This document shows positions 41,551 through 58,379 of a stretch of DNA of 64,000 nt, in pieces. Where the stretch lies: positions 124,001 through 188,000 of the forward strand of contig NZ_QCZI01000004.1 of the NCBI RefSeq assembly GCF_003097635.1, read 5' to 3'. Position numbers and translations under genes: made by a program. Each line of letters begins with the position of its first letter. Position 1 is the first letter of the stretch. This DNA is from Flavobacterium psychrotolerans (GTDB lineage: Bacteria > Bacteroidota > Bacteroidia > Flavobacteriales > Flavobacteriaceae). The notes under the pieces are model-generated. The model saw only the letters and a program-made list of their open reading frames with translations, made no database searches and was not told where the DNA came from.

Positions 41551-43596
41551 TTATTTTTTTCCGGATTTCAACTTCCAGAGGGTTTCTATAAAAACATCCA
41601 CATCCTGGGTGGTGTTGTAAAAGGCCAAAGAAGGCCTCACACAGGTTTCTACGCCCATTCTTCTCAAAATAGGTTGGGCACAATGGTGTCCGGTTCTCAC
41701 GGCAACACCTTCTTTATTCAATGCCTGTCCTACTTCGTCATTGGTAAAACCCTGCAGGTTAAAAGAAAGCACACTCGCTTTATGAGCAGCAGTTCCTATC
41801 AATCGAACGCCTAGAATTTGTTTCAGCAAATGGGTCGCATATTCCAATAAATAATGCTCGTATTGCCCGATTACTTCTATTCCTATTTTAGAAACATAAT
41901 CAATCGCAGCACCAAGGCCAATGGCATCGGCAATATTTCCTGTTCCTGCTTCAAAACGATTCGGTGCTTTGTGGTATTTAATTTCCTCGAAAGTCACGTC
42001 CTGAATCATGTTTCCGCCAGATTGGTACGGCTGGGTTTCGTTCAGCAAATCTTCCTTGCCATACAAAGCGCCAATTCCCGTTGGTCCAAATAATTTATGA
42101 CCGGAGAAAACCAACCAATCGGCATTCAGATACTGAACATCCACTTTCATGTGCGAAACAGATTGTGCTCCATCCAACAATACTTTGGCACCAACAGCAT
42201 GCGCCATTTCCACCATTTGCTTGGCCGGAGTTACCGTTCCCAACGCATTTGAAACTTGGGTAAAAGCCACTAATTTTGTTTTGGAATTCAGCAACTTGGC
42301 ATATTCGTCCAACAGAATTTGTCCGCTATCGTCAACTGGAATCACTCTCAACTTCAAGCCTTTTTTATCGGCTAGACGTTTCCAAGGCACAATATTAGCG
42401 TGATGCTCCAAATTACTCACCACAATTTCGTCACCGGCAACCAAATTCTGGTCACCCCAACTTTGAGCCACCAAATTGATTCCTTCGGTCGCGCCACGAA
42501 CAAAAACAATTTCGTTTACGGATTTGGCATTCAGGAATACTTTCACTTTTTCACGAGCGGCTTCATACGCATCAGAAGCTCTGGCTGCCAATTCGTGAGC
42601 GGCACGATGAATGTTGGAATTTTCGTGCTCATAAAAATAAGCAATACGATCAATCACGGATTGTGGTTTTTGGGTGGTCGCTGCATTGTCAAACCAAATC
42701 AACGGTTTGCCATTCACCGTTTCTCTCAAAATTGGAAAATCCTTCTTGATGCTATGTGCATTGAAATTCGTTCCTCCAAATCCTTCCAATTCGTGGTGAC
42801 TTACGGGAGAAATATCCGCTTTTTTGGAATCAAAGCCAAAAGGGTTTTCATTCAAAAAATAATAAGAACCCGGACTGTCAATAATTTCTGGAGTTGTTAC
42901 CAAAGATGGAATTCCAAAACTGGAATTTAGCGCTTCCAATGCCGTTTTCAATTCCGCTTCAAAAGAAGAATGTTCCAATTCGAATGGCAAATAATTTTGA
43001 TTCAGATTCGACGATGAAGACGAATTACCGCCATTATTTTTCAGATTGGGATCATTGAAACTCGTTTGCGGATCCTCGGCATTGATATTATTGCCGTTAT
43101 TCACGGCATAAGGATCAGCTCCACTTCCCGAAACGGGAGCAGATGCAAATCCTTGATTGACATCCAAGTTCAAATCGCCTAATTGCGAAATATTTTCAAT
43201 AGTGGGATCGGAGAAAGCATTGGGATTCGCTGCAAAAATTCCTAAATTTCCGTATTGGGCAACCGAAGGCGATCCACCAAAACCACCAAAAGATGGCGGT
43301 GTTTGCAGTGAACTCAGCGGATTGCTTGGCACGGTTGGCGTTGCCAATGGTGCATAACCTGTCTGCGCCAATAGGGTATCGTGATTACTCACGGGAAATA
43401 CCGCATCGACTCCTCCTAAATTCCCTGCAGCAAGCAGTGTTTCTGCAATTTTGGTAGCACGAGGATGGTCACTGGCGTTTGGACTCAAGGAAATCTCTTT
43501 TGGAAATTCATTGGGCAAGGCACTGAACAACTCATTGGCTAATTTTTGCAAATCATCTGTACTTGGCAAGCCTGTGTTGTTAGTATTTATACTCAT
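41551..43596 (-). CDS. Encapsulin-cargo cysteine desulfurase (SufS-like, extended N-terminus)
   Basis: The 681-residue protein is a SufS-type PLP cysteine desulfurase (about 281-681) behind a 280-residue low-complexity extension rich in Asn, Ser, Pro and Gly. In the enzyme part, the PLP lysine is K501 (FSGHKLFGPTG), and the catalytic persulfide Cys is C639 (RTGHHCAQP). It turns cysteine into alanine and enzyme-bound sulfane sulfur. The extension has LQKLANELFSALPNE at 16-30 and SPGSYYFLNE at 241-250, resembling conserved segments I recall from the cargo domain of Family 2A encapsulin desulfurases. Its start overlaps the shell gene by 17 bases, indicating coupled translation. Confidence 0.95.
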   Translation of the reverse strand: MSINTNNTGLPSTDDLQKLANELFSALPNEFPKEISLSPNASDHPRATKIAETLLAAGNLGGVDAVFPVSNHDTLLAQTGYAPLATPTVPSNPLSSLQTPPSFGGFGGSPSVAQYGNLGIFAANPNAFSDPTIENISQLGDLNLDVNQGFASAPVSGSGADPYAVNNGNNINAEDPQTSFNDPNLKNNGGNSSSSSNLNQNYLPFELEHSSFEAELKTALEALNSSFGIPSLVTTPEIIDSPGSYYFLNENPFGFDSKKADISPVSHHELEGFGGTNFNAHSIKKDFPILRETVNGKPLIWFDNAATTQKPQSVIDRIAYFYEHENSNIHRAAHELAARASDAYEAAREKVKVFLNAKSVNEIVFVRGATEGINLVAQSWGDQNLVAGDEIVVSNLEHHANIVPWKRLADKKGLKLRVIPVDDSGQILLDEYAKLLNSKTKLVAFTQVSNALGTVTPAKQMVEMAHAVGAKVLLDGAQSVSHMKVDVQYLNADWLVFSGHKLFGPTGIGALYGKEDLLNETQPYQSGGNMIQDVTFEEIKYHKAPNRFEAGTGNIADAIGLGAAIDYVSKIGIEVIGQYEHYLLEYATHLLKQILGVRLIGTAAHKASVLSFNLQGFTNDEVGQALNKEGVAVRTGHHCAQPILRRMGVETCVRPSLAFYNTTQDVDVFIETLWKLKSGKK

Positions 43597-44497
43597 GATA
43601 CTTGCCTATTTCTACGTCTTCCAATACCGCAATGGCATCATCAACGGTAACTGCCAAGGAACAATACAACGATACCAAATAAGAAGCAATGGCTTTTTCA
43701 TTAATCCCCATAAAACGCACGGACAATCCTGGAGATTGTTCGCCTTGCAAGCCTGGTTGAATCAATCCGATTACGCCTTGACGGCTTTCGCCCGTGCGCA
43801 ACAAAATAATTTTGGATTTTCCGTTCTTGATAGGCAATTTATCCGAAGGAATTAGCGGAATTCCTCTCCAAGTCAAGAATTGGGAACCGAACAAAGAAGT
43901 GGTTGGAGGCGGCACGCCACGACGGGTACACTCACGACCAAAAGCTGCGATTGCCAATGGATGCAACAAGAAAAATCCCGGTTCTTTCCAAACTTTGGTC
44001 AACAATTCGTCCAAATCGTCCGGTGTTGGTGCTCCAGTTCTGGTTTTAATAATTTGGGAAGGCGCCACGCTATTCAACAAACCGTAATCCTTGTTGTTGA
44101 TTAATTCGCTTTCTTGACGCTCTTTGATGGTTTCGATGGCCAAACGCAATTGTTCCGAAATTTGGTTGTATGGTTTGCTGTACAAATCCGAAACACGGGT
44201 GTGAACATCAACGATAGTTTGAACTGCCGCCAAGTTGTATTCCCTTGGATTTTCCACATAATCCACAAAAGTATTGGGTAATGTACGCTCATCTCTTGCC
44301 GAACAATCTACTTCGATATGACTCGCATCTTTTACTTTATTCAAACGATATACCCCTGATTCCACTGGAACCCAATGCAAAAGGTGTGTAAGCCATCTTG
44401 GAGATGTTGCCATTGTAGGCACCGAACGTGTCGCGATTGCTAATTGTCTTGCGGCTACGTCGCCTAATGCGGTCTGCTGTTTTTTTTCTTCTGCCAT
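43580..44497 (-). CDS. Family 2A encapsulin shell protein (SrpI-like)
   Basis: The 305-residue protein matches the SrpI-type encapsulin: LGDVAARQLAIATRSVPTM, SPRWLTHLLHWVPVESGVYRLN, then ARDERTLPNTFVDYVENPREY, LLTKVWKEPGFFLLHPLAIAAFGRECTRRGVPPPT and FLTWRGIPLIPSDKLPI. The fold is HK97-like, and shells of this family self-assemble around cargo. In Synechococcus elongatus SrpI packages a cysteine desulfurase, and the adjacent gene here encodes the same kind of enzyme. The upstream genes make cysteine. This is the core of a sulfur nanocompartment. Confidence 0.95.
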   Translation of the reverse strand: MAEEKKQQTALGDVAARQLAIATRSVPTMATSPRWLTHLLHWVPVESGVYRLNKVKDASHIEVDCSARDERTLPNTFVDYVENPREYNLAAVQTIVDVHTRVSDLYSKPYNQISEQLRLAIETIKERQESELINNKDYGLLNSVAPSQIIKTRTGAPTPDDLDELLTKVWKEPGFFLLHPLAIAAFGRECTRRGVPPPTTSLFGSQFLTWRGIPLIPSDKLPIKNGKSKIILLRTGESRQGVIGLIQPGLQGEQSPGLSVRFMGINEKAIASYLVSLYCSLAVTVDDAIAVLEDVEIGKYHEYKY

Positions 44498-44627: not shown

Positions 44628-45545
44628 CTAAACGGCATCAAACAACTCGTCTACAGAAAGGTATCTTTCTCCCGTGTCGTAATTAAAGGTTAGGATTACG
44701 GCGTCTTGCGGTATTTCGTTTATTTTTTTGGAAACTGCCGTCAAGGCCGCTCCGGTTGAAATCCCCGAAAAAATGCCCTCTTCTCTAGTCAATCTTTTGG
44801 AAAAAGCAAAAGCATCATCTTTTTCGACAGGAATGATTTCATCGATGTATTCCCTGTTGAAAACACCCGGCACAAATCCGGCTCCAATGCCCTGAATAGG
44901 ATGTGGTGAAGGCAATCCACCGCTTAAAACCGGTGACAAGGCCGGTTCCACGGCAAAGGTTTTCAGATTCGGAAAGTGTTGTTTCAAAATTTTGGAAACA
45001 CCCGTGATGTGCCCGCCGGTTCCCACTCCCGTAATCAAGTAATCAATCCCATCAGGGAAATCTTTTAAAATTTCCAAAGCAGTCGTTCTTTCGTGAACTT
45101 CCACATTCGCGGGATTGTCAAATTGCAGGGGCAAGAAAGAATTAGGAATGGACTCGGCTAATTCTTTTGCTTTTTCCACCGCACCAGCCGTTCCTTTTTC
45201 TCTTGGCGTCAAGACAAATTCGGCTCCGTAGGCATTCATAATTTTCCGTCTTTCGATACTCATCGATTCCGGCATTACCAAAATAACCTTGTAACCTTTG
45301 ACCGCCGCCACCAACGAAAGCCCAATTCCAGTGTTTCCGGAAGTAGGTTCTATGATGACAGAATCTGGGTTCAAAAGTCCTTTTTTCTCGGCATCTTCAA
45401 TCATCGCCAAAGCGATTCTGTCCTTGATGCTGGCTCCCGGATTTGTTTTTTCCAGTTTAATCCAAACTTTGTTGTTTGGAAACAATTTGTTCAACTTTAC
45501 GTGAGGGGTGTTCCCTATCGTTTCTAAAATGTTTTCGAATTTCAT
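44628..45545 (-). CDS. cysK: Cysteine synthase (O-acetylserine sulfhydrylase)
   Basis: The 305-residue PLP enzyme has [12 protein letters not shown], the PLP lysine K41 in [45 protein letters not shown] and [12 protein letters not shown]. It condenses O-acetylserine with sulfide to cysteine. It lies between serine acetyltransferase and the encapsulin shell, supplying the desulfurase substrate. The gap to the shell gene is 130 bases. Confidence 0.96.
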
Positions 45546-45676: not shown

Positions 45677-46501
45677 TTAAATCGAGTAAAAAATAGGTTC
45701 CGGAAAAGGATTGTTGTCCTTAATCTTGATTTCGTTTTTGTGATACACCACCGAATTGGACGGAATCGTGTAAGTCAACCAAACGTTCCCACCGATGATG
45801 GAATCCCGTCCCACCGTGGTTTGTCCGCCAAGAATGGTGCTGTTGGCATAAATAATGACGTTGTTTTCAATCGTTGGATGCCTTTTGATGAAGGCTTCTT
45901 CTTTTTTTACACTCAAAGCGCCAAGAGTCACTCCTTGATAAATTTGAACATTATCACCAATAACGGCGGTTTCTCCAATCACGATTCCCGTTCCGTGGTC
46001 AATGGCAAAATCATCGCCAATTTGTGCCCCGGGATGTATTTCGATGCTGGTTTTGCTGTGGGCATATTCCGAAATGGTTCGTGCCAACAATTTTAAATCC
46101 TGCCTCCAAATTTGGTTTGAAAACCGATAAATCGCTATGGCAAAAAATCCGGGATAGGAATACAAAACTTCTTCCAAGGATTTGGCGGCCGGGTCTTTGG
46201 CAAAAATAGTCTTGGCATCGTTCAATGCCTTTCGATGCAAATTGGGCAAGGCCGAAAAAAACGTTTTGGTTTGCTCCAAACTTTTGTCGTTTTTAGGTTC
46301 AAAATCCAAAACTAATTCATTGAACTGTATTTCCAATTCGACAAATTTATTTTCGATAATATTCAAATCAGACAATGATCTGGAGGTGTTGGAAAACAAA
46401 ACCGTAAACAATTCGTCGATGAATTGATGGATCGTTTTTTTCTTTGGAAGCACCAAAAAGTTTTGATGTTGTCTCGCTATTTCTTTATAAAATGGGTTCA
46501 T
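45677..46501 (-). CDS. Serine O-acetyltransferase (EpsC/CysE type)
   Basis: The 274-residue protein has an N-terminal helical domain and a C-terminal left-handed beta helix of hexapeptide repeats (IHPGAQIGDDFAIDHGTGIVIG, NVQIYQGVTLGALS, IIYANSTILGGQTTVGRDSIIGGNVW). His residues in DHGTG and the GVTLG turn form the acetyl-CoA/serine site. It makes O-acetylserine for cysK, the next gene. The protein ends FPEPIFYSI with a C-terminal isoleucine, the residue with which CysE tails occupy the CysK active site, so a cysteine synthase complex is possible. Confidence 0.94.
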   Translation of the reverse strand: MNPFYKEIARQHQNFLVLPKKKTIHQFIDELFTVLFSNTSRSLSDLNIIENKFVELEIQFNELVLDFEPKNDKSLEQTKTFFSALPNLHRKALNDAKTIFAKDPAAKSLEEVLYSYPGFFAIAIYRFSNQIWRQDLKLLARTISEYAHSKTSIEIHPGAQIGDDFAIDHGTGIVIGETAVIGDNVQIYQGVTLGALSVKKEEAFIKRHPTIENNVIIYANSTILGGQTTVGRDSIIGGNVWLTYTIPSNSVVYHKNEIKIKDNNPFPEPIFYSI

Positions 46502-46529: not shown

Positions 46530-47792
46530 TCATTTTCCGAACAGTAAAAAGGCGATTATGAGCGTAATAACCACATTGAACGACTGCGCTATCAAGAAGG
46601 CGTACAACGGTTTTTTGCTGTTGTTGGAGAACAAATCCTTGAAGTTGGTTTCCAATCCAATACTGGTGAAAGCCAAAGCAAACCAAAGCCCTTGCAAATT
46701 CTTCAAACTGTCTTTCACTCCATCCCTGACTTCTGGAGCAATCAAGAAAGAGAAAATCAAGGAAGCAGCAATAAAACCAATGACAAACTTGGGGAAACGC
46801 TCCCAAATCACCTTCAAAGTAGGTTTGGATTCCACAGCTTCCGCCGATTTATTTTGGGTATAAGTCCAATAAACCGAAATGGCAAAAGCGGCAATTCCCA
46901 ACAATACATTTTGAGAGAATTTCACGATTGTGCTAATTTTCAAGGCGGTTTCGCCCACCAATGAACCCGAAGCCACAACTGCTCCCGTGGTATCGATACT
47001 ACCGCCTAACCAAGCACCAGTCACTTCTTCGGAAAAGTGGAAATATTTGGCAATAATGGGCATAAAAATCATCATCGGAATGGCCGTTACCAACACCATC
47101 GAAATGACGTAAGACAATTTTTTGGAATCACCTTTAATGGCACCCGAAGTCGCAATCGCAGCCGAAACGCCACAAATGGAAACCGCACTGGAAATCATCA
47201 ACGCCAGTTCGTCATCGACTTTCAGTTTTTTACACAACCAAAAAGCAAAATACCAAACCGACAAAACCACCACCAAAGCTTGTATCAATCCCAAAGAACC
47301 CGCTTTCAAGATGTCCGAAAAAATGACGCTGGTTCCCAACAATACCAGCCCTATTTTTACAAAAATCTCGGTGGAAAGTGCTGTCTTAAACCATTCGGGA
47401 AGCTTGAAAAAATTACCAATGAACAAACCGATTATCAAACTAAAAATCACGGCCTCCAAATTGAGTCCTTTCACGAAAGTGTTTCCGGCAAGAATCAAAG
47501 CGACAACGGTCAACAGATAAACTGCTGGAAATCCCAACAAAAAGTTTTTGACCGATTTCCCCACCAGAAAAATACCAATGCTCCCGATGGAAATAAAATA
47601 GACAAATTGAACGAGCAAGGTTTTCAAATTCTCGAAAGCCAGCACATCACCCACTAAATCTGCTCCGTTGGACCATTTGAATACGGGAACCGTTGGAAGA
47701 TAAAGAAAAAGAGAAATTCCGATAACCAGGAAACCCAGAATGACTACCGTCCAATCTTCGTGAATGCTGAATTGTTTCGTTTTTTGTGACAT
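46530..47792 (-). CDS. YeiH-family putative sulfate exporter (UPF0324)
   Basis: The 420-residue inner-membrane protein has about ten hydrophobic segments (DWTVVILGFLVIGISLFLYL, FVYFISIGSIGIFLV, PAVYLLTVVALILAG, LVVVLSVWYFAFWL and others). AISGVSAAIAT-like VSICGVSAAIATSGAIKGD and WLGGSIDTTGAVVASG fit the family. It is annotated as a sulfate exporter by homology and context, weakly supported experimentally. In this operon it could export sulfate, or the released sulfite or taurine-type anions. The next gene starts 28 bases on. Confidence 0.88.
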   Translation of the reverse strand: MSQKTKQFSIHEDWTVVILGFLVIGISLFLYLPTVPVFKWSNGADLVGDVLAFENLKTLLVQFVYFISIGSIGIFLVGKSVKNFLLGFPAVYLLTVVALILAGNTFVKGLNLEAVIFSLIIGLFIGNFFKLPEWFKTALSTEIFVKIGLVLLGTSVIFSDILKAGSLGLIQALVVVLSVWYFAFWLCKKLKVDDELALMISSAVSICGVSAAIATSGAIKGDSKKLSYVISMVLVTAIPMMIFMPIIAKYFHFSEEVTGAWLGGSIDTTGAVVASGSLVGETALKISTIVKFSQNVLLGIAAFAISVYWTYTQNKSAEAVESKPTLKVIWERFPKFVIGFIAASLIFSFLIAPEVRDGVKDSLKNLQGLWFALAFTSIGLETNFKDLFSNNSKKPLYAFLIAQSFNVVITLIIAFLLFGK

Positions 47793-47883: not shown

Positions 47884-48966
47884 TCAATCTTTCACGCATC
47901 TAAATCCCAAATGACTGCAGGCACTTGTCGTTTCTCCTTTGCCGCGACTTCCTGCCACGTAGCGAATGCAATATTGGTCGCTGCACAAATAGGAACCACC
48001 TCTTTGAACGTGTTTTTCCACTCCCGGTTCTTCGGGATCCTTGCTGGTTGAAGGACCTGCTGGATTATCACTAGTACTATCTTTATAATAATCGTCTCGG
48101 TATAAATCGCTGCACCATTCCCATACATTGCCTTCCAAATCATAGATTCCAAAAGGGTTTTTCGGAAAAGATTTGACTGGAGCTGCGGCTGCAAAACCGT
48201 CTTCGGCCGTGTTGTTGTTTGGGAAAGTTCCTTGAAAAATATTCGCCACCCATTTACCGTTGGGTTTCAATTCCGTTCCCCAATAATATTTGGTATGCGG
48301 TCTTCCCGCTCTGGCGGCAAACTCCCACTCCGCCTCGGTTGGCAATCGTTTTCCTGCCCATTCGGCATAAGCCTTGGCATCCAAATAACTAACTTGCACA
48401 ACAGGATTATTTTCGAGTCCCACAATACTACTTTCCGGTCCTGACGGATGTTGCCAACTCGCTCCCGGAACGTATTGCCACCATTGCTGGATGTTGTCCA
48501 ATGCCACTTTCTCTGTTGGCGGCACAAATACTGCCGAACCCGGCACAAGATTTTCCAGCGGAACACCCGGATAATCCTTTGCATCCAATGGTCTTTCAGC
48601 GATGGTTATATAATTGGTTGCCTTCACAAAAGCGGCAAACTGGGCATTTGTTACCTCGTGTTCGTCCATCCAATAGCCTTTGACACTCACTTTGTGAACG
48701 GGTTTTGCATCGGGATAATCGTTGGTTCCCATACTAAACTCCCCTCCCGAAATCCAAACCATTTCATTGTTTGAAGTAGTCGAATTTTCTTTGGATTTTT
48801 TCCCAATGGATTGCAACAACAAGGCTTTTTTGGAAGTATTAGCCTTGCACATCGCTTCACAGCTGGTTGTAGTAGCAGCAACTAAAACCTTTTTTTCCTG
48901 ACCAAAAGCGGAATATAAACTAGACAAAATAAAGGCAACAATTAAACTAATTATTTTTAGGTTCAT
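47884..48966 (-). CDS. Secreted formylglycine-generating enzyme (SUMF1/FGE family)
   Basis: The 360-residue protein has a signal peptide ending near SAFGQ. It begins with a Cys/Lys-rich segment, then the FGE-sulfatase domain: MVWISGGEFSMGTND, GYWMDEHEVTNAQFAAFV, SYLDAKAYAEWAGKRLPTEAEWEFAA, GNVWEWCSDLY and QRGGSYLCSDQYC. C328 and C333 have the C-x4-C spacing of the copper-binding active-site pair of human FGE (C336/C341). It therefore looks catalytic, converting the sulfatase Cys to formylglycine. A signal peptide suggests it acts after export. It is the first gene of unit B; its likely substrate sulfatase is in unit A. Confidence 0.92.
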   Translation of the reverse strand: MNLKIISLIVAFILSSLYSAFGQEKKVLVAATTTSCEAMCKANTSKKALLLQSIGKKSKENSTTSNNEMVWISGGEFSMGTNDYPDAKPVHKVSVKGYWMDEHEVTNAQFAAFVKATNYITIAERPLDAKDYPGVPLENLVPGSAVFVPPTEKVALDNIQQWWQYVPGASWQHPSGPESSIVGLENNPVVQVSYLDAKAYAEWAGKRLPTEAEWEFAARAGRPHTKYYWGTELKPNGKWVANIFQGTFPNNNTAEDGFAAAAPVKSFPKNPFGIYDLEGNVWEWCSDLYRDDYYKDSTSDNPAGPSTSKDPEEPGVEKHVQRGGSYLCSDQYCIRYVAGSRGKGETTSACSHLGFRCVKD

Positions 48967-49328: not shown

Positions 49329-50042
49329 TTATTTTGGGACTAAAGCCAAATCAACGTCTTTATTCAAATCTCCCAAACCGTCTTTTTTGAAAGCAATTTT
49401 ACCTTTTTGGTATAAAATCAAGGTAGGGAATACATTAACTGTTTTCAAATCGGCTATCACCTGCGGACTTTCTTCCAAATCAATTTCCACTATTTTTAAA
49501 TTGATTCCATATTGAGCCCTGATGGTTTCCAAAACAGGTTTCACTTTTTTACAAGCCCCACAATAGCGAGAACCTATATCGACCAAAACAATGTTGTTGT
49601 CAGCTATGATTTTTTGGTATTCCTCTAAGGATAATTTGCTTTTCAAATTGGTGTAAAAAGGCTTTCCTCCCCCTATCCAAGCGGCAATCCCTCCTTCTAA
49701 ATCGTGTACATTCGAAAAACCGTTTTTCAACAATTCTTTGGCTAATTCACCACTTCTTCCTGCTCCAATCGAATAAATAAATACTGGTTTTGATTGGTCC
49801 AATGCCGCTACATATTTGGCATAATTCTCCGTTTGTAAGTAAAAATTAAGTGCTCCATCAATATGGTTCAACGCAAACTCTTCGGGGCTTCGAGCATCAA
49901 TAATCTGTGGATTTTTTTGGCTTTTTATTTTGGCATAAAAAGCATCCAAGTGCAATGTGAATGCATTTGGGGTTTGGGCAAAAGCGCCAACTGTTATAAA
50001 CAAGGCTAGCATTGCGATACTATTTTTTAGAAAATTTTTCAT
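49329..50042 (-). CDS. Exported rhodanese-like/thioredoxin fusion
   Basis: The 237-residue protein has a signal peptide ending at GAFAQ, a rhodanese-like domain (about 30-128: PQIIDARSPEEFALNHIDGAL, DLEGGIAAWIGGGKP) and a thioredoxin domain (about 135-237) with CGAC at 161-164 and the cis-Pro segment FPTLILY. In the rhodanese loop the usual Cys is S91 (FIYSIGAGRSGE), so sulfur transfer by the normal persulfide is not expected; the thioredoxin half should be redox active. It is last in unit A, in a sulfur context, perhaps serving disulfide handling during export or processing. Confidence 0.9.
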   Translation of the reverse strand: MKNFLKNSIAMLALFITVGAFAQTPNAFTLHLDAFYAKIKSQKNPQIIDARSPEEFALNHIDGALNFYLQTENYAKYVAALDQSKPVFIYSIGAGRSGELAKELLKNGFSNVHDLEGGIAAWIGGGKPFYTNLKSKLSLEEYQKIIADNNIVLVDIGSRYCGACKKVKPVLETIRAQYGINLKIVEIDLEESPQVIADLKTVNVFPTLILYQKGKIAFKKDGLGDLNKDVDLALVPK

Positions 50043-50094: not shown

Positions 50095-51087
50095 TTATCT
50101 TCTAGCCAATGGACTTCCTTCCTTGCTGGATTTGAATATTGGCCAAAGCAATTGAGCATACCATTCTTCTTGTTTGTATGATTTTGATCCGTAAGTTTTT
50201 GGAAATTGACGTGTAATTATTCCAGTATGAAATATAATGTCCCAGATAAAAAACATGTTTCCAAAATTTCCTTTGTAATTCCCTACTCCATCTCCAGTTG
50301 TGTCTGCATGATGCGCATGGTGTGTGGCTGGTGTCGAAATTACTCTCTCTAAAACCCAAGCAACTGGATGCAAAACTTTGTATTTGTAAAATGGTTTGTC
50401 CCAAGCTATGCTCGAATGTGCCGATAAAGTGATAATGCTTTTTAAAACAGTCACAAATAAAGCCGGCAATCCCAAGCCAAAATAAGCCAACGTAGCCGTT
50501 AGATAAATCTGGGAAAATAATACTGTATATATAAAATTTTGGCGAGAAGCCATCGCCATCCCCATATATGGAGCTGAATGATGAGTTCTATGAAACAACC
50601 ATAAAAAAGGAAGTTGGTGATGCAAACGGTGGTACCAATATTGGGTCAAATCATCGGCAATGGCAATTAGAAAAAAGCCTCCCCAAAAAGGAACCCATGA
50701 AAGTGCGTTTTCAAAATTGGGAACAACTAAAGGCAATATTTTCAAACTAAAGAAGGCAATTATGGGTGGTAAAAGTAATTTGGGGGCCAAAAAACAAACA
50801 ATGTCGACTTTACGCTCGCTAGATGTCCATTTGTTATCATAAAGACCAAAGATGAATTCAATTACACCTAAACCTAGTAAAACGGCTGTTAATCCCCAGG
50901 TTTTAAGATGCTCAAAAGCCGGTTGTACAATTTTTAAGAAAGGTGGCAAACTTACATGACTTTCTAACAATGCCCCATCATTGAACTTAAAATAGAGGTA
51001 AATGGCCAATACTGGCAAGGAATAAATTAAAAGACTCACGCTGATATCTTTTATTATTTTAATTTTTAAACTTGGATCTATTTGCAT
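50095..51087 (-). CDS. Sterol desaturase / fatty-acid hydroxylase superfamily membrane protein
   Basis: The 330-residue integral membrane protein has several hydrophobic segments and the diiron histidine clusters YHRLHHQLP, FHRTHHSAPYM and HHAHHADTTGDG, the eight-His pattern of the fatty-acid hydroxylase superfamily. Family members oxygenate lipids. In Bacteroidota they occur in lipid and sulfonolipid biology, but the substrate here is not known. It follows a 39-residue membrane protein by six bases and precedes the rhodanese-thioredoxin gene in unit A. Confidence 0.88.
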   Translation of the reverse strand: MQIDPSLKIKIIKDISVSLLIYSLPVLAIYLYFKFNDGALLESHVSLPPFLKIVQPAFEHLKTWGLTAVLLGLGVIEFIFGLYDNKWTSSERKVDIVCFLAPKLLLPPIIAFFSLKILPLVVPNFENALSWVPFWGGFFLIAIADDLTQYWYHRLHHQLPFLWLFHRTHHSAPYMGMAMASRQNFIYTVLFSQIYLTATLAYFGLGLPALFVTVLKSIITLSAHSSIAWDKPFYKYKVLHPVAWVLERVISTPATHHAHHADTTGDGVGNYKGNFGNMFFIWDIIFHTGIITRQFPKTYGSKSYKQEEWYAQLLWPIFKSSKEGSPLARR

Positions 51088-51279: not shown

Positions 51280-53199
51280 TTAATGAGTTTCTCCAGGTTT
51301 TGTTACTTGTTGAATCAGATCTTGAAGGTTTTTACCTTTATTTGTTGCGGTGTTGTGAATTCTTCTGCCATACACATCTTGCCAATCGATTAAGGGATAA
51401 AGATTGTTCTCTTTGGCTTGTTCGTCAAACAATTTTTTAAGTTCTTCCAATTTTTCAGGATACTTTTTAGCCAAGTTATTGCGCTCGTTAAAATCTTCGT
51501 TCAAGTTGTACAATTCCCAAACATCTTTGTCAAAATTACTAGCCACTGGCACTTCGTTCTTGCCTAATGATTTTTTTACAGCAAAAGAATCCGGAAGATG
51601 CGCCGCAGCAGCTTTCCAACCATCTTTGTAAATGGCTCTGTTTCCGAAAATATAATAGTATTGTACTTTGTGCAATGATTCGGCTTTGGCATCATTTAGC
51701 GAAGCATACAAAGAAGAGCCTTGAATTTTATCTTGTTTGATTTCACGAATAAATTCTGGGGCTTTGATTCCTGCTATTTCCAATGTGGTAGGAAGAATGT
51801 CCGTCACGTGACTGTATTGGTTTCTAATCCCTCCTTTTTCCTTGATCCCTTTTGGATAATGAATAATCAATGGATTGCGCGTTCCTCCCTCTGAATGTGC
51901 ATCTTGTTTCCAATTTTTGAAAGGGGCATTGGTGGCTTGTGCCCAACCTAAAGGAAAATTAGTATTTAGGCCTTTGGCTGTACCAATTTCTCCTATTTTA
52001 CTCAAATTATCCTGAAGATTTTGCTCATCAGACACGCCTTGGGCAAAAAGATTTTGGCTAATTGTACCTTGCAAAGTTCCTTCTTTGCTGGCTCCATTAT
52101 CACCAATGGCAACAAAAATCAAGGTGTTGTCCAATTGATTGGTCTCTTTCAAATAATTCACGACTCTTCCGATGGCGTGATCCGTATAAGTCAGGTATCC
52201 CGCATACACTTCCATGAATCTAGCATACACTTTCTTTTGGTCTGGTGTTAGTTTTTTCCATTCCGTAATGAGCGGATTGCGTTCCGGCAATATCGCATTA
52301 GCAGGAATTACTCCCAATTTCTTTTGGTTGGCCAATACTTTTTCGCGGTATACATCCCAGCCCTCATCAAATTTTCCTTTGTACTGGTCACTCCACTCTT
52401 GTGCTACTTGATGTGGTGCGTGAACAGCTCCCGGTGCATAATACAAAAAGAATGGTTTTCCTGGTGCTGCCTTTTGTTGTTTGGTAATATAACCAATAGC
52501 TTTATCGGTAATTTGATCGGTTAAATGGCGTCCGTCTGGTTTTACGTGGGCTTGGTCTTCTATCAAATCTGGATTGTATTGATCGGTTTGCGATCCCAAG
52601 AAACCAAAGAAATGATCGAATCCTTTTCCGGTTGGCCAACGGTCAAATGGTCCAGCATCGGTGGCGTCTTCATCGGGAGTTACTCCATATTTACCCACGG
52701 CAAAAGTATTATATCCGTTGTCTCTCAAGATTTCGGCAACAGTTCCTTTGTCCGATGGAATTCTTCCATCCCAACCCGGGAAACCTGCCGATAAAATAGT
52801 ATGCGAAAAACCACTAACGTGTACTTTTCCTGAATTCCTTCCCGTCAATAATGCGGCTCGAGTTGGTGCACAAATGGCTGTGGTGTGAAAATTGGTGTAT
52901 CGCAACCCATTATTGGCCAAAGCGTCAAAAGTTGGGGTTTGTATCAAGCCACCAAAAGCACTACTAGCCCCGAATCCCACATCATCCAGCAAAATCCAAA
53001 CAATATTGGGTGCTCCAGCGGGAGCTTTTACGGGTTCTGGCCAATATTCTTTAGATTCGGCCAAAGTTTTACCAATAACGCCTTTGTAGTTAGCATCAGG
53101 TTTGTTTTGGGAAAAACCAAATTGAGCAACCAGCAAAGCGGTAAGTAAAAGCCCTTTTTTAGGACTTTTTAATTTTTCATTTTTTTTAAAATTTTTCAT
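51280..53199 (-). CDS. Exported arylsulfatase (Cys-type, formylglycine-dependent)
   Basis: The 639-residue sulfatase has a signal peptide (LLLTALLVAQFGFSQ), the metal-binding aspartates in LLDDVGFG (D72, D73) and the catalytic C110-A-P-T-R114 motif, in which C110 must be oxidised to formylglycine. YYAPGAVHAPHQ and VAIGDNGASKEG are further family blocks. It removes sulfate from organic sulfate esters. It lies 18 bases after susD and is the only sulfatase in the window; a matching FGE is encoded in unit B. Confidence 0.95.
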   Translation of the reverse strand: MKNFKKNEKLKSPKKGLLLTALLVAQFGFSQNKPDANYKGVIGKTLAESKEYWPEPVKAPAGAPNIVWILLDDVGFGASSAFGGLIQTPTFDALANNGLRYTNFHTTAICAPTRAALLTGRNSGKVHVSGFSHTILSAGFPGWDGRIPSDKGTVAEILRDNGYNTFAVGKYGVTPDEDATDAGPFDRWPTGKGFDHFFGFLGSQTDQYNPDLIEDQAHVKPDGRHLTDQITDKAIGYITKQQKAAPGKPFFLYYAPGAVHAPHQVAQEWSDQYKGKFDEGWDVYREKVLANQKKLGVIPANAILPERNPLITEWKKLTPDQKKVYARFMEVYAGYLTYTDHAIGRVVNYLKETNQLDNTLIFVAIGDNGASKEGTLQGTISQNLFAQGVSDEQNLQDNLSKIGEIGTAKGLNTNFPLGWAQATNAPFKNWKQDAHSEGGTRNPLIIHYPKGIKEKGGIRNQYSHVTDILPTTLEIAGIKAPEFIREIKQDKIQGSSLYASLNDAKAESLHKVQYYYIFGNRAIYKDGWKAAAAHLPDSFAVKKSLGKNEVPVASNFDKDVWELYNLNEDFNERNNLAKKYPEKLEELKKLFDEQAKENNLYPLIDWQDVYGRRIHNTATNKGKNLQDLIQQVTKPGETH

Positions 53200-53217: not shown

Positions 53218-54687
53218 TTAATAACCTGGATTTTGTTGTAACCCAACTGGGTCAATATTTCGCTCACTTTGAGGAATTGGATACAAATTGTTACGTTCTG
53301 AAACCGTGTTTTTTGCAGTTACTTTTTTTACTTCGGTAACCAAAGTTCCCCAACGAACCAAGTCATACCAACGTTGTCCTTCTTGAACAAATTCTTTTTT
53401 GCGCTCTTCTCGAATGGCTTCCCTCAATTGAACATCGGTAAGTCCTGCCAAATCTACTGTTACATCCAGCGTATTGATTGGTTTGGCAAAAGCTCTTCTT
53501 CTTACTTGATTTACCAATTCCAAAGCCTCTGCAGTTGCTCCGTCTTTCTCGTTAATCGCTTCTGCTAAAGACAATAGAACGTCGGCATAACGAATAATTG
53601 GAAAATTAATAGCCACATTTTGTGGCGAAGCCAAATTAGTAACGTCAAGATATTTACTAAAAATCGGTTTTGGAAAAGTATAAAGTGTTCCGGTGGCAGG
53701 ATTCAATAATTGTTTGGTATAACTCACGTCTCTTCTGACATCTCCTGTTGCATAGATGTTATAAAACAAGGTTACGTCCGAAATAATATCTGCTGGTTCC
53801 GTGGCAGTAAATCCTGTAAAAGAGGTAGCCTGAAAAGTACTTCCGCTTGACCCGTTGGATGCTTGGTTCGGCTCGAATTGAACCGAAAAAATGTGTTCTT
53901 TTCCGTTCTTCTTCGTTTTATTGAACACGTCAGCGAAATTCTCGAAAAGTGCATATCCGTAACCACCATTAATAACTTCCTTCGCTTTTAGGATAGCATT
54001 TGGCCAATCTTTTCTGGTCAAATATACTTTGGCCAAAATAGCTTTTGCGGCTCCCGAAGTAGCACGACCTACATTCGCTCCCGTATAGGTCGATGGCAAA
54101 GCTTCAGCATCCTTCAAGTCCAAAATAATTTGTGTGTAAACCTCGTCTACGGTCGCTCTTTTTGATTTTAGACTTTCCACATTGATGGAAGTAGGTTCGT
54201 GCAATACCAATGGAACTCCACCCCAAAGACGAACTGCTTGAAAGTACAACAGACCTCTAATGAATTTGGCTTCATTGATCAATCTGGTTTTGACAGCATC
54301 AGTACCTTGCACATTTGGGATATTGTCAATCGCCACATTGGCTCTGTTGATTCCGTTATAAATTTGGCGCCAAGCCAATTGCACACGATCTGAAGTGGCA
54401 TCGTGAGTCAAACTACTCAATGCCCTAACTTGAGGATTCGTTGCAGAAACTCCAGCAGCTGCATAATCAGAAGCCATATCGGTAAGGAAATATAAATTTC
54501 TCCCAAATAGACTTTGTTCGCCTGGTTCAATATTCAAAGAAGCATAGACTGCCGTAACACTGGCAACAGCATCATCCTGCGTTTTGAAGAACTTATCTTT
54601 GGTAATAAAAGAGGTAGGCGTTACCTCTAATTCGGTGCACGAAACTAATAGAGTGGCACTTAATAGGAATGTGATTATTTTTTTCAT
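53218..54687 (-). CDS. SusD/RagB family nutrient-binding lipoprotein
   Basis: The 489-residue protein has a lipoprotein signal (LLSATLLVSC, Cys near 16), then the SusD pattern: FFKTQDDAVASVTAVY, IYNGINRANVAIDNI, AKFIRGLLYFQAVRLWGGVPLV, AKAILAKVYLTRKDWPNAI and the C-terminal AIREERKKEFVQEGQRWYDLVRWG with PIPQSERNIDP. It caps the SusC pore and captures substrate. It lies 17 bases after susC. The arylsulfatase downstream suggests a sulfated ligand. Confidence 0.96.
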   Translation of the reverse strand: MKKIITFLLSATLLVSCTELEVTPTSFITKDKFFKTQDDAVASVTAVYASLNIEPGEQSLFGRNLYFLTDMASDYAAAGVSATNPQVRALSSLTHDATSDRVQLAWRQIYNGINRANVAIDNIPNVQGTDAVKTRLINEAKFIRGLLYFQAVRLWGGVPLVLHEPTSINVESLKSKRATVDEVYTQIILDLKDAEALPSTYTGANVGRATSGAAKAILAKVYLTRKDWPNAILKAKEVINGGYGYALFENFADVFNKTKKNGKEHIFSVQFEPNQASNGSSGSTFQATSFTGFTATEPADIISDVTLFYNIYATGDVRRDVSYTKQLLNPATGTLYTFPKPIFSKYLDVTNLASPQNVAINFPIIRYADVLLSLAEAINEKDGATAEALELVNQVRRRAFAKPINTLDVTVDLAGLTDVQLREAIREERKKEFVQEGQRWYDLVRWGTLVTEVKKVTAKNTVSERNNLYPIPQSERNIDPVGLQQNPGY

Positions 54688-54704: not shown

Positions 54705-57700
54705 TTAGAAAGTTACGTTCAACCCCGAGATGAATGTTTTAGAATTTGGATAAGCACCAAAGTCAATTCCGGGATATAAATTATTTTGTTCATAAGAACT
54801 TACCTCTGGATCGTAGCCCGTATATTTAGTCCAGGTAATCAAGTTTTCGGCAGATACATATAATTTGATGCTCTTCGTTCCTATTTTTGAAGAAAGACTT
54901 TTAGGCAATGTGTAGCCTAAAGTAATCTGTTTTAATCTCAAAAAGGATGCGTCTTCCACGTAGCGTTCTGAAACAATTCCCAAAGGTGAACTTGACGCTC
55001 TAGGTATTTCATTGCTTGGATTGGTAGCAGTCCAACGGTCTTCCAAAGTAGCAGCGGCATTCGTTCCAAGTGTAGAAATTTCTAATTGTTGGTTCAAGGC
55101 GTTAAATATTTTACCTCCATAAGACCCCTGGAAAGAAACATTCAAATCGAAGTTATCATACGAAATCGTGTTACTGAAACTTCCAACAAATTTAGGTTGT
55201 GAACTTCCTAGACTACCTTTGTCGGCAGCCGAGATGATTCCGTCTCCATTAGTGTCCACATACTTTCTGTCTCCTACTTTTGTATTGGCAAGACTGTTTA
55301 TTTTAGGTTGGGTATTGATTTCTTCTTGGGTTTGAAAAATACCATTGGTTTTGTATCCCCAAAAAGTACCAAGAGGCTCTCCCACTTTTACGGTCACAGG
55401 TTGTTGTTGCAACAAAGAACCGTTTGGAACTACCGGAAAAAATTGATTAACACCATTTCCAATTTCAACCACTTTATTTTTATTGGCTGAAAACACAAGG
55501 TTCGAATTCCAAGAGAAATTTTCTGTTTTTATGTTTTCTGTTATTAAACCAATTTCAATCCCTTTATTCTCAACACCTCCAATGTTTTGAAGAACGGTGG
55601 CAAATCCTGAAGTCAATGGAACAGGTACATTTATAAGTAAATCGTTTGTTTTTTTGTAGTAAGCATCAAAAACGAAATTTACTTTTCTATCCAATAATGA
55701 CAAGTCTAAACCAACATTATATTGAGTGGTTTTTTCCCATCTCAAATCCGGATTTGCCAAACGAGTGGGAACCAATCCTGTTTGTATCACACCACCAAAA
55801 CTATAATTAACAGAACCTATTGAAGCCAAGGAAAGGTAATTTCCAATTTCTTGATTTCCTGTTGTTCCTGCGCTTAATCTCAATTTAATATCATCGACAC
55901 CCTTTATGTTTTTAGCAAAATCTTCTTCGGTAATGTTCCAAGAAAAACCTGCTGACGGGAAATATCCCCAAAGTGATTTTGAACCAAATCTTGAAGAACC
56001 ATCGGCACGTGCTGACACGGTAAGATTGTATCGTCCTTTATAAGAATAATTTGCTCTGGCCAGCCATGATTTCAACACGCTTTCGAAAGCATCACTGTAA
56101 GGTTTCACAGCCACACCGTCTTGCAAAGCGTTAAAAGTATTGACATCATTTACAAAAGTATTGGCTCCTGCATTAACCACCTCTCCTTGTGTATATTGAA
56201 GCGTATATCCTGCCAAAGCAGAAAACTTGTGGTCGTTTCCAAAACGGGTATTGTAATTCAAGGTATTTTCATTCAATACCGAACTTACCGATCTGTTACC
56301 AACGGAAGCTAATCCTTTAGTTGCAGCTCCATTTGTGGTATTGGCTGGTGCAAAATAATTTTGTTTGGTATTAATCACATCTCCACTAACAGCAACTTTA
56401 GCCGTAATTTCTTTGTTAATTTTATATTCACCAAACAAGCTAGTCAAAATTCTATTAATTTTGGTCTCATTAATGGTGTTTTCCAAATCATTAATTGGAT
56501 TGGATACATAACCATTCACAGAGGTTGCATAAGGGTTTTGGGTTACATTATAACTTCCGTCAGCATTTTTAATAGGAACTACTGGAGCCGTTAACAAGGC
56601 AACAACAATAGGATTCGGTTGTCTGCCGGCTGCTGCACCGCCATTAGACCCTACACCATTTGCTACTGAATTAGTGTAATTGGTATTTATTCCAAATTTA
56701 AAGTTTTGAGAATAATTTCTTTCGTAATTGGCGCGCAGCGAAATTCGTTTGAAGTCAGATCCAATCACGATTCCTTTCTGATCAAAAAGGGCTGTAGAAA
56801 CTGCATATCGAGAACGATCATCACCACCCGAAAAGGTCAATTGGTGATTTTGAACTGGAGCATTTCTAAAAAGTGCCGATTGCCAGTCATGACCACCTGA
56901 AGATTTAAGCGCTTCTATTTGAGCAGGAGAAAATGAAGGGGTTTGCCCTATACTTGCCTGAACATCGTTACGCAAACTAGCCCATTGTGAAGCATTAAGA
57001 AGATCTAGTTTTTTAGATACTTTTTGTGTACCATAATACGTCTGGAACGAAATAATATCTTGTCCTTTGGTTCCTTTTTTAGTAGTAATAAGTACCACAC
57101 CATTAGCACCACGTGATCCATAAATCGCTGTAGCTGAAGCATCTTTTAGCACCTCAACAGACTCAATATCATTAGGGTTAATGGTTGACAATACGTTAAC
57201 TCCTGCTCCGGCATTAACCACACCAGCCGTACCATTGTTATTGTCATTATAAATCAATACTCCGTCTATGACATAAAGTGGTTCGTTACCTGCCGTAATA
57301 GAATTTCCTCCCCGTATACGAACACTAGAACTGGCACCAGGTTGTCCTGAACTTTGAGTAACTACAACCCCTGCTACGGCACCTCTCAATAAATTGTCTG
57401 CAGAAGAAGTAACTTGATTTAGGTTTGTTTTTGGAACCGAGGAAACGGCACCTGTAATATCCTTTCTTTTTTGAGAGCCATAACCTACAACTACTAACTC
57501 GTTGAGTTCTTGGATATCTTGCTTCAAATTAATAATCGTTGGACTTCCATCTACAATTACTTCTGTTTTTTTATACCCAATATAACTTACTATCAAGGTA
57601 TAAGGGAATTTTTGCCCTGTTTGGAAATAAAATTTCCCTTCTGCATCTGTTGTTACTGAATGCGTCGTTCCTTTAATGGTTATAGATGCCCCTATAATAG

Positions 57701-57833
57701 GTTCATTTGTTATTTGATCGACTACTTTTCCATCGAGTTTTGACTGGATAAGCGGTTTGGTTTCTTGAGCATTAATTCCTATTGAAATTAGCAAAATGCA
57801 TAACCATGTGTATCTATTTAATTTTTTTTTCAT
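54705..57833 (-). CDS. SusC/RagA family TonB-linked outer-membrane transporter
   Basis: The start is the ATG at 57833 (MKKKLNRYTWLCILLISIGI, signal ending at NAQ); the longer frame would add 19 residues. The mature protein has a carboxypeptidase-like beta domain (LDGKVVDQITNEPIIGASITI), the SusC TonB-box region ELVVVGYGSQKRKDITGAVSSV, a plug (GAVAGVVVTQSSGQPGASS, VRIRGGNSITAGNEPLYVIDG) and a 22-strand barrel. With SusD it imports oligomeric or bulky nutrients. The leader upstream is about 510 bases, unusually long. Confidence 0.97.
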   Translation of the reverse strand: MKKKLNRYTWLCILLISIGINAQETKPLIQSKLDGKVVDQITNEPIIGASITIKGTTHSVTTDAEGKFYFQTGQKFPYTLIVSYIGYKKTEVIVDGSPTIINLKQDIQELNELVVVGYGSQKRKDITGAVSSVPKTNLNQVTSSADNLLRGAVAGVVVTQSSGQPGASSSVRIRGGNSITAGNEPLYVIDGVLIYNDNNNGTAGVVNAGAGVNVLSTINPNDIESVEVLKDASATAIYGSRGANGVVLITTKKGTKGQDIISFQTYYGTQKVSKKLDLLNASQWASLRNDVQASIGQTPSFSPAQIEALKSSGGHDWQSALFRNAPVQNHQLTFSGGDDRSRYAVSTALFDQKGIVIGSDFKRISLRANYERNYSQNFKFGINTNYTNSVANGVGSNGGAAAGRQPNPIVVALLTAPVVPIKNADGSYNVTQNPYATSVNGYVSNPINDLENTINETKINRILTSLFGEYKINKEITAKVAVSGDVINTKQNYFAPANTTNGAATKGLASVGNRSVSSVLNENTLNYNTRFGNDHKFSALAGYTLQYTQGEVVNAGANTFVNDVNTFNALQDGVAVKPYSDAFESVLKSWLARANYSYKGRYNLTVSARADGSSRFGSKSLWGYFPSAGFSWNITEEDFAKNIKGVDDIKLRLSAGTTGNQEIGNYLSLASIGSVNYSFGGVIQTGLVPTRLANPDLRWEKTTQYNVGLDLSLLDRKVNFVFDAYYKKTNDLLINVPVPLTSGFATVLQNIGGVENKGIEIGLITENIKTENFSWNSNLVFSANKNKVVEIGNGVNQFFPVVPNGSLLQQQPVTVKVGEPLGTFWGYKTNGIFQTQEEINTQPKINSLANTKVGDRKYVDTNGDGIISAADKGSLGSSQPKFVGSFSNTISYDNFDLNVSFQGSYGGKIFNALNQQLEISTLGTNAAATLEDRWTATNPSNEIPRASSSPLGIVSERYVEDASFLRLKQITLGYTLPKSLSSKIGTKSIKLYVSAENLITWTKYTGYDPEVSSYEQNNLYPGIDFGAYPNSKTFISGLNVTF

Positions 57834-57924
57834 TACTTTGTTTTGGTTTAATAAATAAGGACGCTGAAAACTGAGAATTTCAATTTTCACTTCCTTTTAG
57901 AGATTAACATTTTTTTTTAAGCCT

Positions 57925-57958
57925 GCCATTTCTGTTCCAGCAGAAATGGCTTTTTTTT
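57925..57958 (+). terminator. Intrinsic terminator on the plus strand near the susC start
   Basis: GCCATTTCTG and CAGAAATGGC form a 10-bp stem with a six-base loop, followed by eight Ts on the plus strand. On the minus strand the same hairpin lies in the susC leader, 8 bases beyond the second mini-ORF, but with As rather than Ts after it. No plus-strand gene ends here. Confidence 0.7.
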
Positions 57959-57959
57959 A

Positions 57960-57983
57960 TTACCTACAACACATTCGTTTCAT
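57960..57983 (-). other. Second Cys-containing mini-ORF in the susC leader (MKRMCCR)
   Basis: ATG AAA CGA ATG TGT TGT AGG TAA encodes seven residues with a Cys pair. It shares the 12-base core cgaatgtgttgt with the first leader ORF at 58208-58264. It ends nine bases before the hairpin arms at 57925-57950 and 127 bases before susC. On its own it could be chance; the repeat of R-M-C-C is the reason to report it. Confidence 0.45.
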
Positions 57984-58207: not shown

Positions 58208-58264
58208 TTAACAGCAACAACACATTCGGCATGAGTTACCAAACGCAGTATATTGTCGCATCAT
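58208..58264 (-). other. Cysteine-rich leader peptide ORF upstream of susC (MMRQYTAFGNSCRMCCCC)
   Basis: The 18-codon ORF starts at ATG ATG (58264-58259), about 80 bases after the predicted transcript start, and ends TGT TGT TGC TGT TAA: five cysteines, four in a row before the stop. Polycysteine leader ORFs control sulfur-linked operons by ribosome stalling in mycobacteria (cysteine-responsive attenuation). Its position, in the leader of a SusCD-sulfatase operon next to cysteine synthesis genes, fits that role. No clear Shine-Dalgarno is seen, which is normal for this phylum. Confidence 0.65.
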
Positions 58265-58349
58265 TAAATTGGATATGTTTGTGATCTTCTTCAAAATAGA
58301 GTAGATTAATAATGTATTATTATTTTTTAATTCGACTAATTCCGTAGGA

Positions 58350-58379
58350 CAAAGGTATATTAAAAATCGAAACTACCAA
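58350..58379 (-). promoter_or_regulatory. Promoter of unit A (susC to rhodanese-thioredoxin)
   Basis: On the minus strand TTG (58379-58377) is followed after 19 bases by TACCTTTG (58357-58350). The spacer starts GGTAGTT and contains ATTTTTAA. Aligned without gaps to the unit B promoter, 28 of 36 positions agree, including the spacer. Confidence 0.75.

Follow-up and report, generated by a model that had tools for sequence, protein, structure and literature searches.

The susC-type operon in the 64-kb window (the whole stretch of Flavobacterium psychrotolerans DNA analysed here, whose coordinates are used throughout) is preceded by a leader of about 510 nt, running from approximately 58344 to 57833 on the minus strand, 5' of susC. 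We believe, with a probability of roughly 0.7, that this leader is a cysteine-responsive leader-peptide element serving a sulfur-scavenging and cysteine-making regulon, its translation and its response to cysteine being what we infer from the comparisons described below. The original prediction had drawn attention to a Cys-tailed frame in front of what it called a SusC-sulfatase operon. The presence of such a frame before this Flavobacterium operon is a real observation, which we confirm, and the feature is larger than was first seen. The susC and sulfatase genes are there as described, but the operon is wider and carries, in addition, sulfur and cysteine genes (cysE, cysK, encapsulin, and desulfurase):

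54705..57833, minus strand: susC-type TonB-dependent receptor gene (Pfam)
53218..54687, minus strand: susD-type gene (Pfam)
51280..53199, minus strand: sulfatase gene (Pfam; NCBIfam below cut-offs)
50095..51087, minus strand: fatty acid hydroxylase family gene (Pfam)
49329..50042, minus strand: rhodanese-thioredoxin fusion gene (Pfam)
47884..48966, minus strand: sulfatase-modifying factor family gene (Pfam)
46530..47792, minus strand: YeiH-type membrane protein gene (Pfam; NCBIfam below cut-off)
45677..46501, minus strand: serine O-acetyltransferase gene, cysE/epsC type (NCBIfam NF041874 just at cut-off; TIGR01172 below its own)
44628..45545, minus strand: cysteine synthase gene, cysK (NCBIfam TIGR01139)
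43580..44497, minus strand: family 2A encapsulin shell gene, srpI type (NCBIfam NF041162)
41551..43596, minus strand: encapsulin cargo cysteine desulfurase gene (NCBIfam NF041166)

It is because of this gene set, from susC to the cysteine desulfurase, that we regard the operon as one for sulfur scavenging and cysteine supply, and these genes, which share one orientation and are separated by no more than about 360 nt, probably lie on one transcript. In Synechococcus, sulfur starvation induces a family 2A encapsulin (PMC8049743). The leader itself contains the following features:

58350..58357, minus strand: promoter -7 element TACCTTTG (sequence; same place in the aligned leaders)
58332..58347, minus strand: element conserved where transcription is expected to start, CTACGGAATTAGTCGA in the window and CTATAGGATTAGTAGA in the family (leader alignment)
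58208..58294, minus strand: sORF1, 28 codons with a TTG start, LKKITNISNLMMRQYTAFGNSCRMCCCC, tail CRMCCCC (comparison of leaders)
58225..58243, minus strand: hairpin P0 inside sORF1, nt 52-57 pairing with nt 65-70, two bases before Cys codon 25 (covariation)
57960..57983, minus strand: sORF2, MKRMCCR, a second Cys-rich micro-ORF (sequence and leader comparison)
57925..57950, minus strand: hairpin P2, GCCATTTCTG-CTGGAA-CAGAAATGGC, 9 nt 3' of the sORF2 stop; on the plus strand, with the T8 that comes after it, it has the form of an intrinsic terminator
57857..57896, minus strand: hairpin P3, just before the susC start (covarying among orthologs)

When the letters were read again, the 18-codon frame with its Cys-codon end was present exactly as claimed at 58264-58208 on the minus strand (ATG ATG CGA CAA TAT ACT GCG TTT GGT AAC TCA TGC CGA ATG TGT TGT TGC TGT TAA), encoding MMRQYTAFGNSCRMCCCC and then a stop, and it does lie about 80 nt downstream of the start expected from the promoter-like sequence TACCTTTG (58357-58350). 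No other frame in the window has Cys at each of its last four codons, and none such appeared in 30 dinucleotide shuffles; the pattern TGYTGYTGYTGYTRR has four matches in the same genome, the other three of which fall inside or antisense to long coding frames. The extent of the frame had to be revised. The 18 codons are real but form the 3' part of the longer frame that is conserved, the 28-codon sORF1 (58294-58208), which starts with TTG.

Orthologs of susD, with 76-87% identity, were found in 27 of 120 other Flavobacterium genomes searched, and the susC leaders at these loci were compared. In all 28 orthologous susC leaders, the window's included, sORF1 with a Cys-rich tail stands at the same place, the loci having been picked by susD orthology. 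The expectation that a run of Cys codons would be conserved in these leaders thus held for the Cys-rich tail but not for an unbroken run, which few of them have: the usual tail among the orthologs is CYMCFCC. A “polycysteine” run of four is present in the window but is atypical, a CCCC ending occurring in 8 of 101 leaders, and the exact pattern C-R/S-M-CCCC-stop was found, among 60 genomes searched, in this genome only. The number and spacing of Cys residues vary (GYMCKCC, RRMCFCC, CRMCCCC, NPMCCCR, YYMYFCC), with three to five Cys codons near the end of sORF1 and a weak start, TTG or GTG, in a U-rich context. Eight of 11 paralogous leaders also carry sORF1, one of them (the second locus in L059) with the degenerate tail YYMYFCC; another (L048) has the second frame only, and two gave nothing, their starts probably being misplaced.

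Several properties of sORF1 are those of a translated frame. Among 24 aligned leaders, 22 keep a length of exactly 28 codons and the other two have one whole codon more (29), and over 101 distinct leaders the length was 28 codons in 97, 27 in two, and 29 in two; the start codon was TTG in 79 of these and GTG in 22. Cys occupies codons 25, 27, and 28 in 88, 90, and 88, respectively, of 90 distinct 28-codon rows, with exchange between TGT and TGC while the residue is kept. The frame is open in 90 of 90 such rows, which had been picked as open frames (the orthologous susC loci, by comparison, were picked by susD orthology), and none of 500 column shuffles of codons 2-21 matched this. Selection on the residues before the tail is weak: the synonymous fraction was 0.166, against 0.122 in column shuffles, and 22 of 500 shuffles were as high. 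In the 24-leader set the synonymous fraction was 0.31 in the real frame and 0.33 in the +2 frame. Since the residues are loosely kept and the synonymous fraction does not exceed that of the +2 frame, the case for translation consists of the frame itself, the tail, the exchange of start codons, and the fact that length changes by whole codons. Codon 24 is ATG in 89 of 90 rows, and because it is so nearly invariant, a 5-codon frame, MCxCC, starting there is possible.

The leader RNA appears to be structured around this frame. The window's leader folds far better than its shuffles (z -4.9; 0 of 100 as good). P0 was examined in 47 sequences of less than 93% identity to one another, in which 96.5% of cells are paired. 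Twenty-eight cells are changed on both sides of the stem, against 5.1 in shuffles, a number that none of 500 shuffles reached, kinship being known to inflate such counts; five of the six pairs change on both sides, as many as in 8 of 500 shuffles, and the signal vanishes when the partner strand is slid by one to three columns. None of Cys codons 25, 27, and 28 falls within P0. Farther downstream, sORF2 is present in 28 of 28 orthologous susC leaders, each time with two or more Cys close to its end; across 87 modules it has at least two Cys in 71 and none or one in 16, and in the 24-leader set the synonymous fraction of its +2 frame is higher than that of the real frame. The P2 stem hardly varies: in family A, to which the window's leader belongs, it is GCCATTTCTG/CAGAAATGGC, and in family B mostly ACCATTTCTG/CAGAAATGGT. 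A P2-like match is absent from 9 of 98 leaders with sORF1. P3 has compensatory changes in four pairs, one of which rests on a single sequence.

Family B is a second susC/susD family (L106-L111 and L113-L123) whose leaders carry the promoter element, P2, and a micro-ORF, MKKRMCCR, in which Cys is less strict; sORF1 is absent from the family B susC leaders. Copies of P2 (core TTTCTGCGGCAACrGAAA) were also seen in the leaders of sulfatase and encapsulin operons (L305, L310, L318, and L303), partly broken in L303, L305, and L310, and these last three leaders have the conserved string GAACATTTATCACT in common.

The promoter is among the most constant parts of the leader, and a sense promoter scan gave matches in 35 of 39 leaders. 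The -7 consensus is quoted as TAnnTTTG (PMC7366714). The element at the transcription start, CTAtnnnATTAGTAGA (58332-58347), resembles what might be an operator for a repressor common to these operons. A search of five genomes for the motif only returned five sites in two genomes, four with sORF1 (three in G131 and one in the window's own genome) and one with a family B leader. In total, 132 distinct loci bearing the motif were collected, 98 with sORF1, one with a degenerate sORF1, and 33 with the family B type of promoter and with P2, a biased sample because the loci had mostly been fetched for P2, susD, or the tail.

The leader is not restricted to susC. Of 150 Flavobacterium genomes, 43 contain the sORF1 tail pattern, at 66 places in all; a reversed control gave 10 places. 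Thirty-three of the 66, chosen mainly as leaders not yet read, were inspected, and 14 have the promoter string together with a frame of 27-28 codons. These 14 leaders precede susC (2), cysE (6), encapsulin (1), sulfatase followed by cysE or cysK (4), and metY-metX-homoserine dehydrogenase (1); nine products from four of the loci were checked by NCBIfam, several scoring below the curated cut-off, and the others were named by eye from likeness. The remaining 19 places lack promoter and leader and look like chance matches, one of them (L294) having a similar promoter string with a 5-codon frame only. The occurrence of cysE, cysK, encapsulin/cysteine desulfurase, sulfatase, and metY genes behind one and the same leader fits a cysteine signal. 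Among 397 genomes of the family, the tail pattern matched 45 times beyond Flavobacterium and its reversed control 19 times there, and none of the 25 pattern matches inspected has the promoter motif; this excess therefore does not appear to represent the leader studied here. A looser tail pattern was dropped, its matches being, by eye, about as frequent as those of the reversed control. An RNA model of sORF2 plus P2 (R1) gave nothing convincing outside the genus, with matches in 3 of 299 family genomes (the window's own, G083, and G206) behind a coarse prefilter that may miss some, and the G206 match turned out to be an ordinary terminator on the opposite strand. When named genomes were scanned for P2, at least 120 stretches were returned, and among the 80 loci listed, 77 belong to Flavobacterium or Flavobacteriaceae and three are unrelated. 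As far as the searches reached, with 25 of the 45 outside tail places inspected, the leader appears to be confined to Flavobacterium. One non-pathogenic carrier is F. denitrificans DSM 15936.

How the leader would act on the genes behind it is a separate question, and here the comparison departs from the attenuator that was first imagined. A conserved intrinsic terminator on the sense strand was sought in 101 leaders and found in 3, against 1 of 101 shuffled leaders; on the antisense strand a terminator is present in 82 of 101. The window's one weak terminator-like match on the sense strand (58247-58221) consists of P0 followed by TTGTTGCTGT. Because no sense terminator is conserved, textbook transcription attenuation is not what these sequences show. 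In ribosome simulations on 11 leaders, the value for P2 was 0.99-1.00 with the ribosome at the first sORF2 Cys codon, 0-0.27 with it at the stop (0.62 in L042), and 0.68-1.00 with no ribosome, and the predicted openness of the susC start was hardly moved by the position of the ribosome on sORF2. The suggestion that ribosomes stall at the Cys codons thus finds agreement in the Cys tail, the TGT/TGC exchange, the position of P0 beside the Cys codons, and the sulfur gene context, which fits a cysteine signal; the suggestion that stalling would switch a terminator in the classical way was not borne out, given the scarcity of sense terminators and the nearly unchanged susC start. RNAalifold chose an 11-bp pairing of the sORF2 Cys codons with P2 in family A, and this pairing was equalled by 0 of 100 shuffles in the loop class CGGCAA and by 20% in the window's class, CTGGAA, with energies that do not agree from class to class. 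Striking in family A, it did not carry over to other loop classes, that of the window among them. Over the 100 nt after sORF1, the mean fold z score against mononucleotide shuffles was -1.2, with 9 of 26 leaders below -1.65, a weak effect. The sign of a Rho signal is weak: the C/G bias after sORF1 is raised in the set, with a median of 3.0, a value reached by 10% of background stretches, and was 1.6 in the window's own leader, where it is not special, 54% of background stretches reaching it.

An alternative reading of the antisense terminators is that P2 ends a short antisense RNA, starting near or inside the 5' end of susC and repressing it in the manner of DonS, with the micro-ORFs secondary. 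Read antisense, P2 has 7-8 T and makes a good intrinsic terminator, both in the window and in nearly all family A leaders, and 82 of 101 leaders have an antisense terminator against 3 with a sense one. Bacteroides is known to have DonS-like antisense RNAs at the 5' ends of susC genes (PMC7366714), and a scan for antisense promoters gave 9 matches in 10 family B stretches against 5.7 expected, slightly above chance. In family A, however, to which the window belongs, the scan showed no conserved antisense promoter (6 matches in 24 stretches, against 13.5 from shuffles), and an antisense RNA leaves unexplained sORF1, P0, and the Cys codons, as well as the nine sORF1 leaders that lack a P2-like match. 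We consider it unlikely that this is what the leader is for. It is very unlikely, in our estimate, that the leader is a structured promoter or operator region with conserved RNA whose open frames are by-products. The promoter, the start-site element, and P2 are indeed its most conserved parts, P0 and P2 are RNA structures, and the third-position preference of sORF1 is modest; against it stand length changes by whole codons only, the exchange of TTG and GTG at the start, third-position exchange at Cys codons that lie outside P0, and the presence of the frame in every ortholog.

It is also conceivable, and to our minds most improbable, that the active agent is the Cys-rich peptide, serving as a nascent-chain sensor or as a small binder of a metal or redox signal, and that Cys-tRNA is not what is counted. 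The common order C-x-C-C, as in CYMCFCC, would suit such a peptide, and the nascent-protein copper sensor that provides a precedent reportedly uses a Cys motif. That sensor is the subject of a published report (PMC9973294). What argues against an acting peptide is that the number and spacing of Cys vary among sORF1 tails and that the leader stands before genes of sulfur and cysteine metabolism.

Under the reading that we prefer, a cysteine-responsive leader peptide, a shortage of Cys-tRNA would cause ribosomes to halt at the terminal Cys codons of sORF1, where they would hold P0 open and act on P2 by way of sORF2, and this halted state would let transcription and translation continue into susC and the cys genes; with ample cysteine, ribosomes would finish and leave, and the leader would be shut down. 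The likeliest output, which we put forward tentatively, may be that, where the leader runs untranslated for a long way from one micro-ORF to the next, transcription is ended by Rho or the mRNA decays, with translational control of susC less likely. Rho or decay is a first guess on weak grounds. We commit ourselves to sensing through cysteine codons without assigning an output because sense terminators are not conserved, the susC start is hardly moved, and the pairing of sORF2 with P2 was not seen to hold across loop classes. A more elaborate proposal, which we regard as quite unlikely, is that two Cys micro-ORFs in series, with no sense terminator, would let the position of the ribosome pick the states of P0 and P2, and hence choose whether the sense genes are expressed or an antisense RNA is made that ends at P2. 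A single family of leaders would, on this view, define a whole sulfur regulon from SusCD importer to encapsulin-stored cysteine desulfurase.

Searches with known models returned little for this leader. A scan of the window at Rfam gathering scores for known leader families gave no match within the leader, and the leader of L064 matched only RefA9, at 22.1 bits against a cut-off of 49. NCBIfam, which includes Cys-rich leader-peptide models, gave no match at an E value of 0.01 for sORF1 from the window and from one ortholog, 28-residue sequences being weak queries. Elsewhere in the window, Rfam 5_ureB_sRNA matched at 81 bits at 59680-59978 on the minus strand, antisense to a long plus-strand frame (59528-61249) that by its look is a urease gene; the match possibly reflects only conserved coding sequence. 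A Flavo-1 RNA match at 555-624 reached 43.6 bits, narrowly exceeding the gathering score of 42.

The closest parallels lie in Actinobacteria. Flavobacterium is not known to have a Shine-Dalgarno system, unlike the hosts of the actinobacterial leaders, and translation starts in Bacteroidota are not known to rely on Shine-Dalgarno pairing. In mycobacteria and other Actinobacteria, polycysteine leader ORFs precede cysteine and sulfur operons and are described as having no conserved terminator hairpin (Seliverstov et al. 2005; PMC1262725); the nearest case is that of Canestrari et al. 2020, as cited in PMC9094748 and PMC13236596. Like these, sORF1 is short, lies upstream, has its Cys codons by the stop, precedes cysteine and sulfur operons, and belongs to leaders without a conserved terminator hairpin. 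The Flavobacterium leader differs in belonging to another phylum and matching no known leader family, in having an internal covarying hairpin, P0, and a second frame, sORF2, with a hairpin of its own, and in counting a SusCD outer-membrane importer among its targets. Like the trp and his attenuators, it is a structured leader in whose early part the control codons adjoin a hairpin; unlike them, it has no conserved sense terminator. With the cis-antisense RNAs of the DonS type in Bacteroides polysaccharide utilization loci it shares an antisense terminator before susC, but no antisense promoter was found in family A, and Cys-codon frames are not described for DonS in the available part of that work (PMC7366714). 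The same text calls short frames in the long 5' untranslated regions of Bacteroides thetaiotaomicron reminiscent of leader peptides (PMC7366714); these resemble sORF1 in being short frames in long Bacteroidota leaders and differ from it in that the accessible passages name neither a cysteine tail nor sulfur genes for them.

The same genome offers a contrast in the leader upstream of its metY gene:

L321:2951-3040 (own genome, contig C3), minus strand: Met/Cys-rich leader frame upstream of metY, followed by a sense intrinsic terminator

The frame encodes MNNLKQKQMNTCNVKSMICAKAMMCVCVC, and a stem and T run follow on the sense strand 28 nt after its stop, a terminator of the kind that the susC leader lacks. 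Judged from its sequence, the metY leader is probably an ordinary attenuator of its own responding to Met/Cys, the sulfur amino acids. A family search matched metY in 201 of 299 genomes, and among the 30 best-scoring loci, which were those examined, 8 have a Met/Cys-rich frame within 420 nt upstream and 5 of these have a sense terminator, counts taken with no shuffle control.

In F. psychrophilum, leader-peptide attenuation has been described before amino-acid biosynthesis operons, and the section of that study on 5' cis-regulatory RNAs makes no mention of cysteine (PMC9723704). We found no cysteine leader described for Bacteroidota in the CC-licensed PMC literature, as far as its accessible text extends. 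If the preferred reading is true, cysteine would be sensed by leader peptides in Bacteroidota too, by leaders that have no sequence family in common with those of Actinobacteria, and amino-acid control would extend to a SusCD outer-membrane importer. The leader would then define a sulfur regulon, comprising importer, sulfatase, cysE, cysK, encapsulin with its cysteine desulfurase, and metY, that would be recognisable by sequence in many Flavobacterium species.
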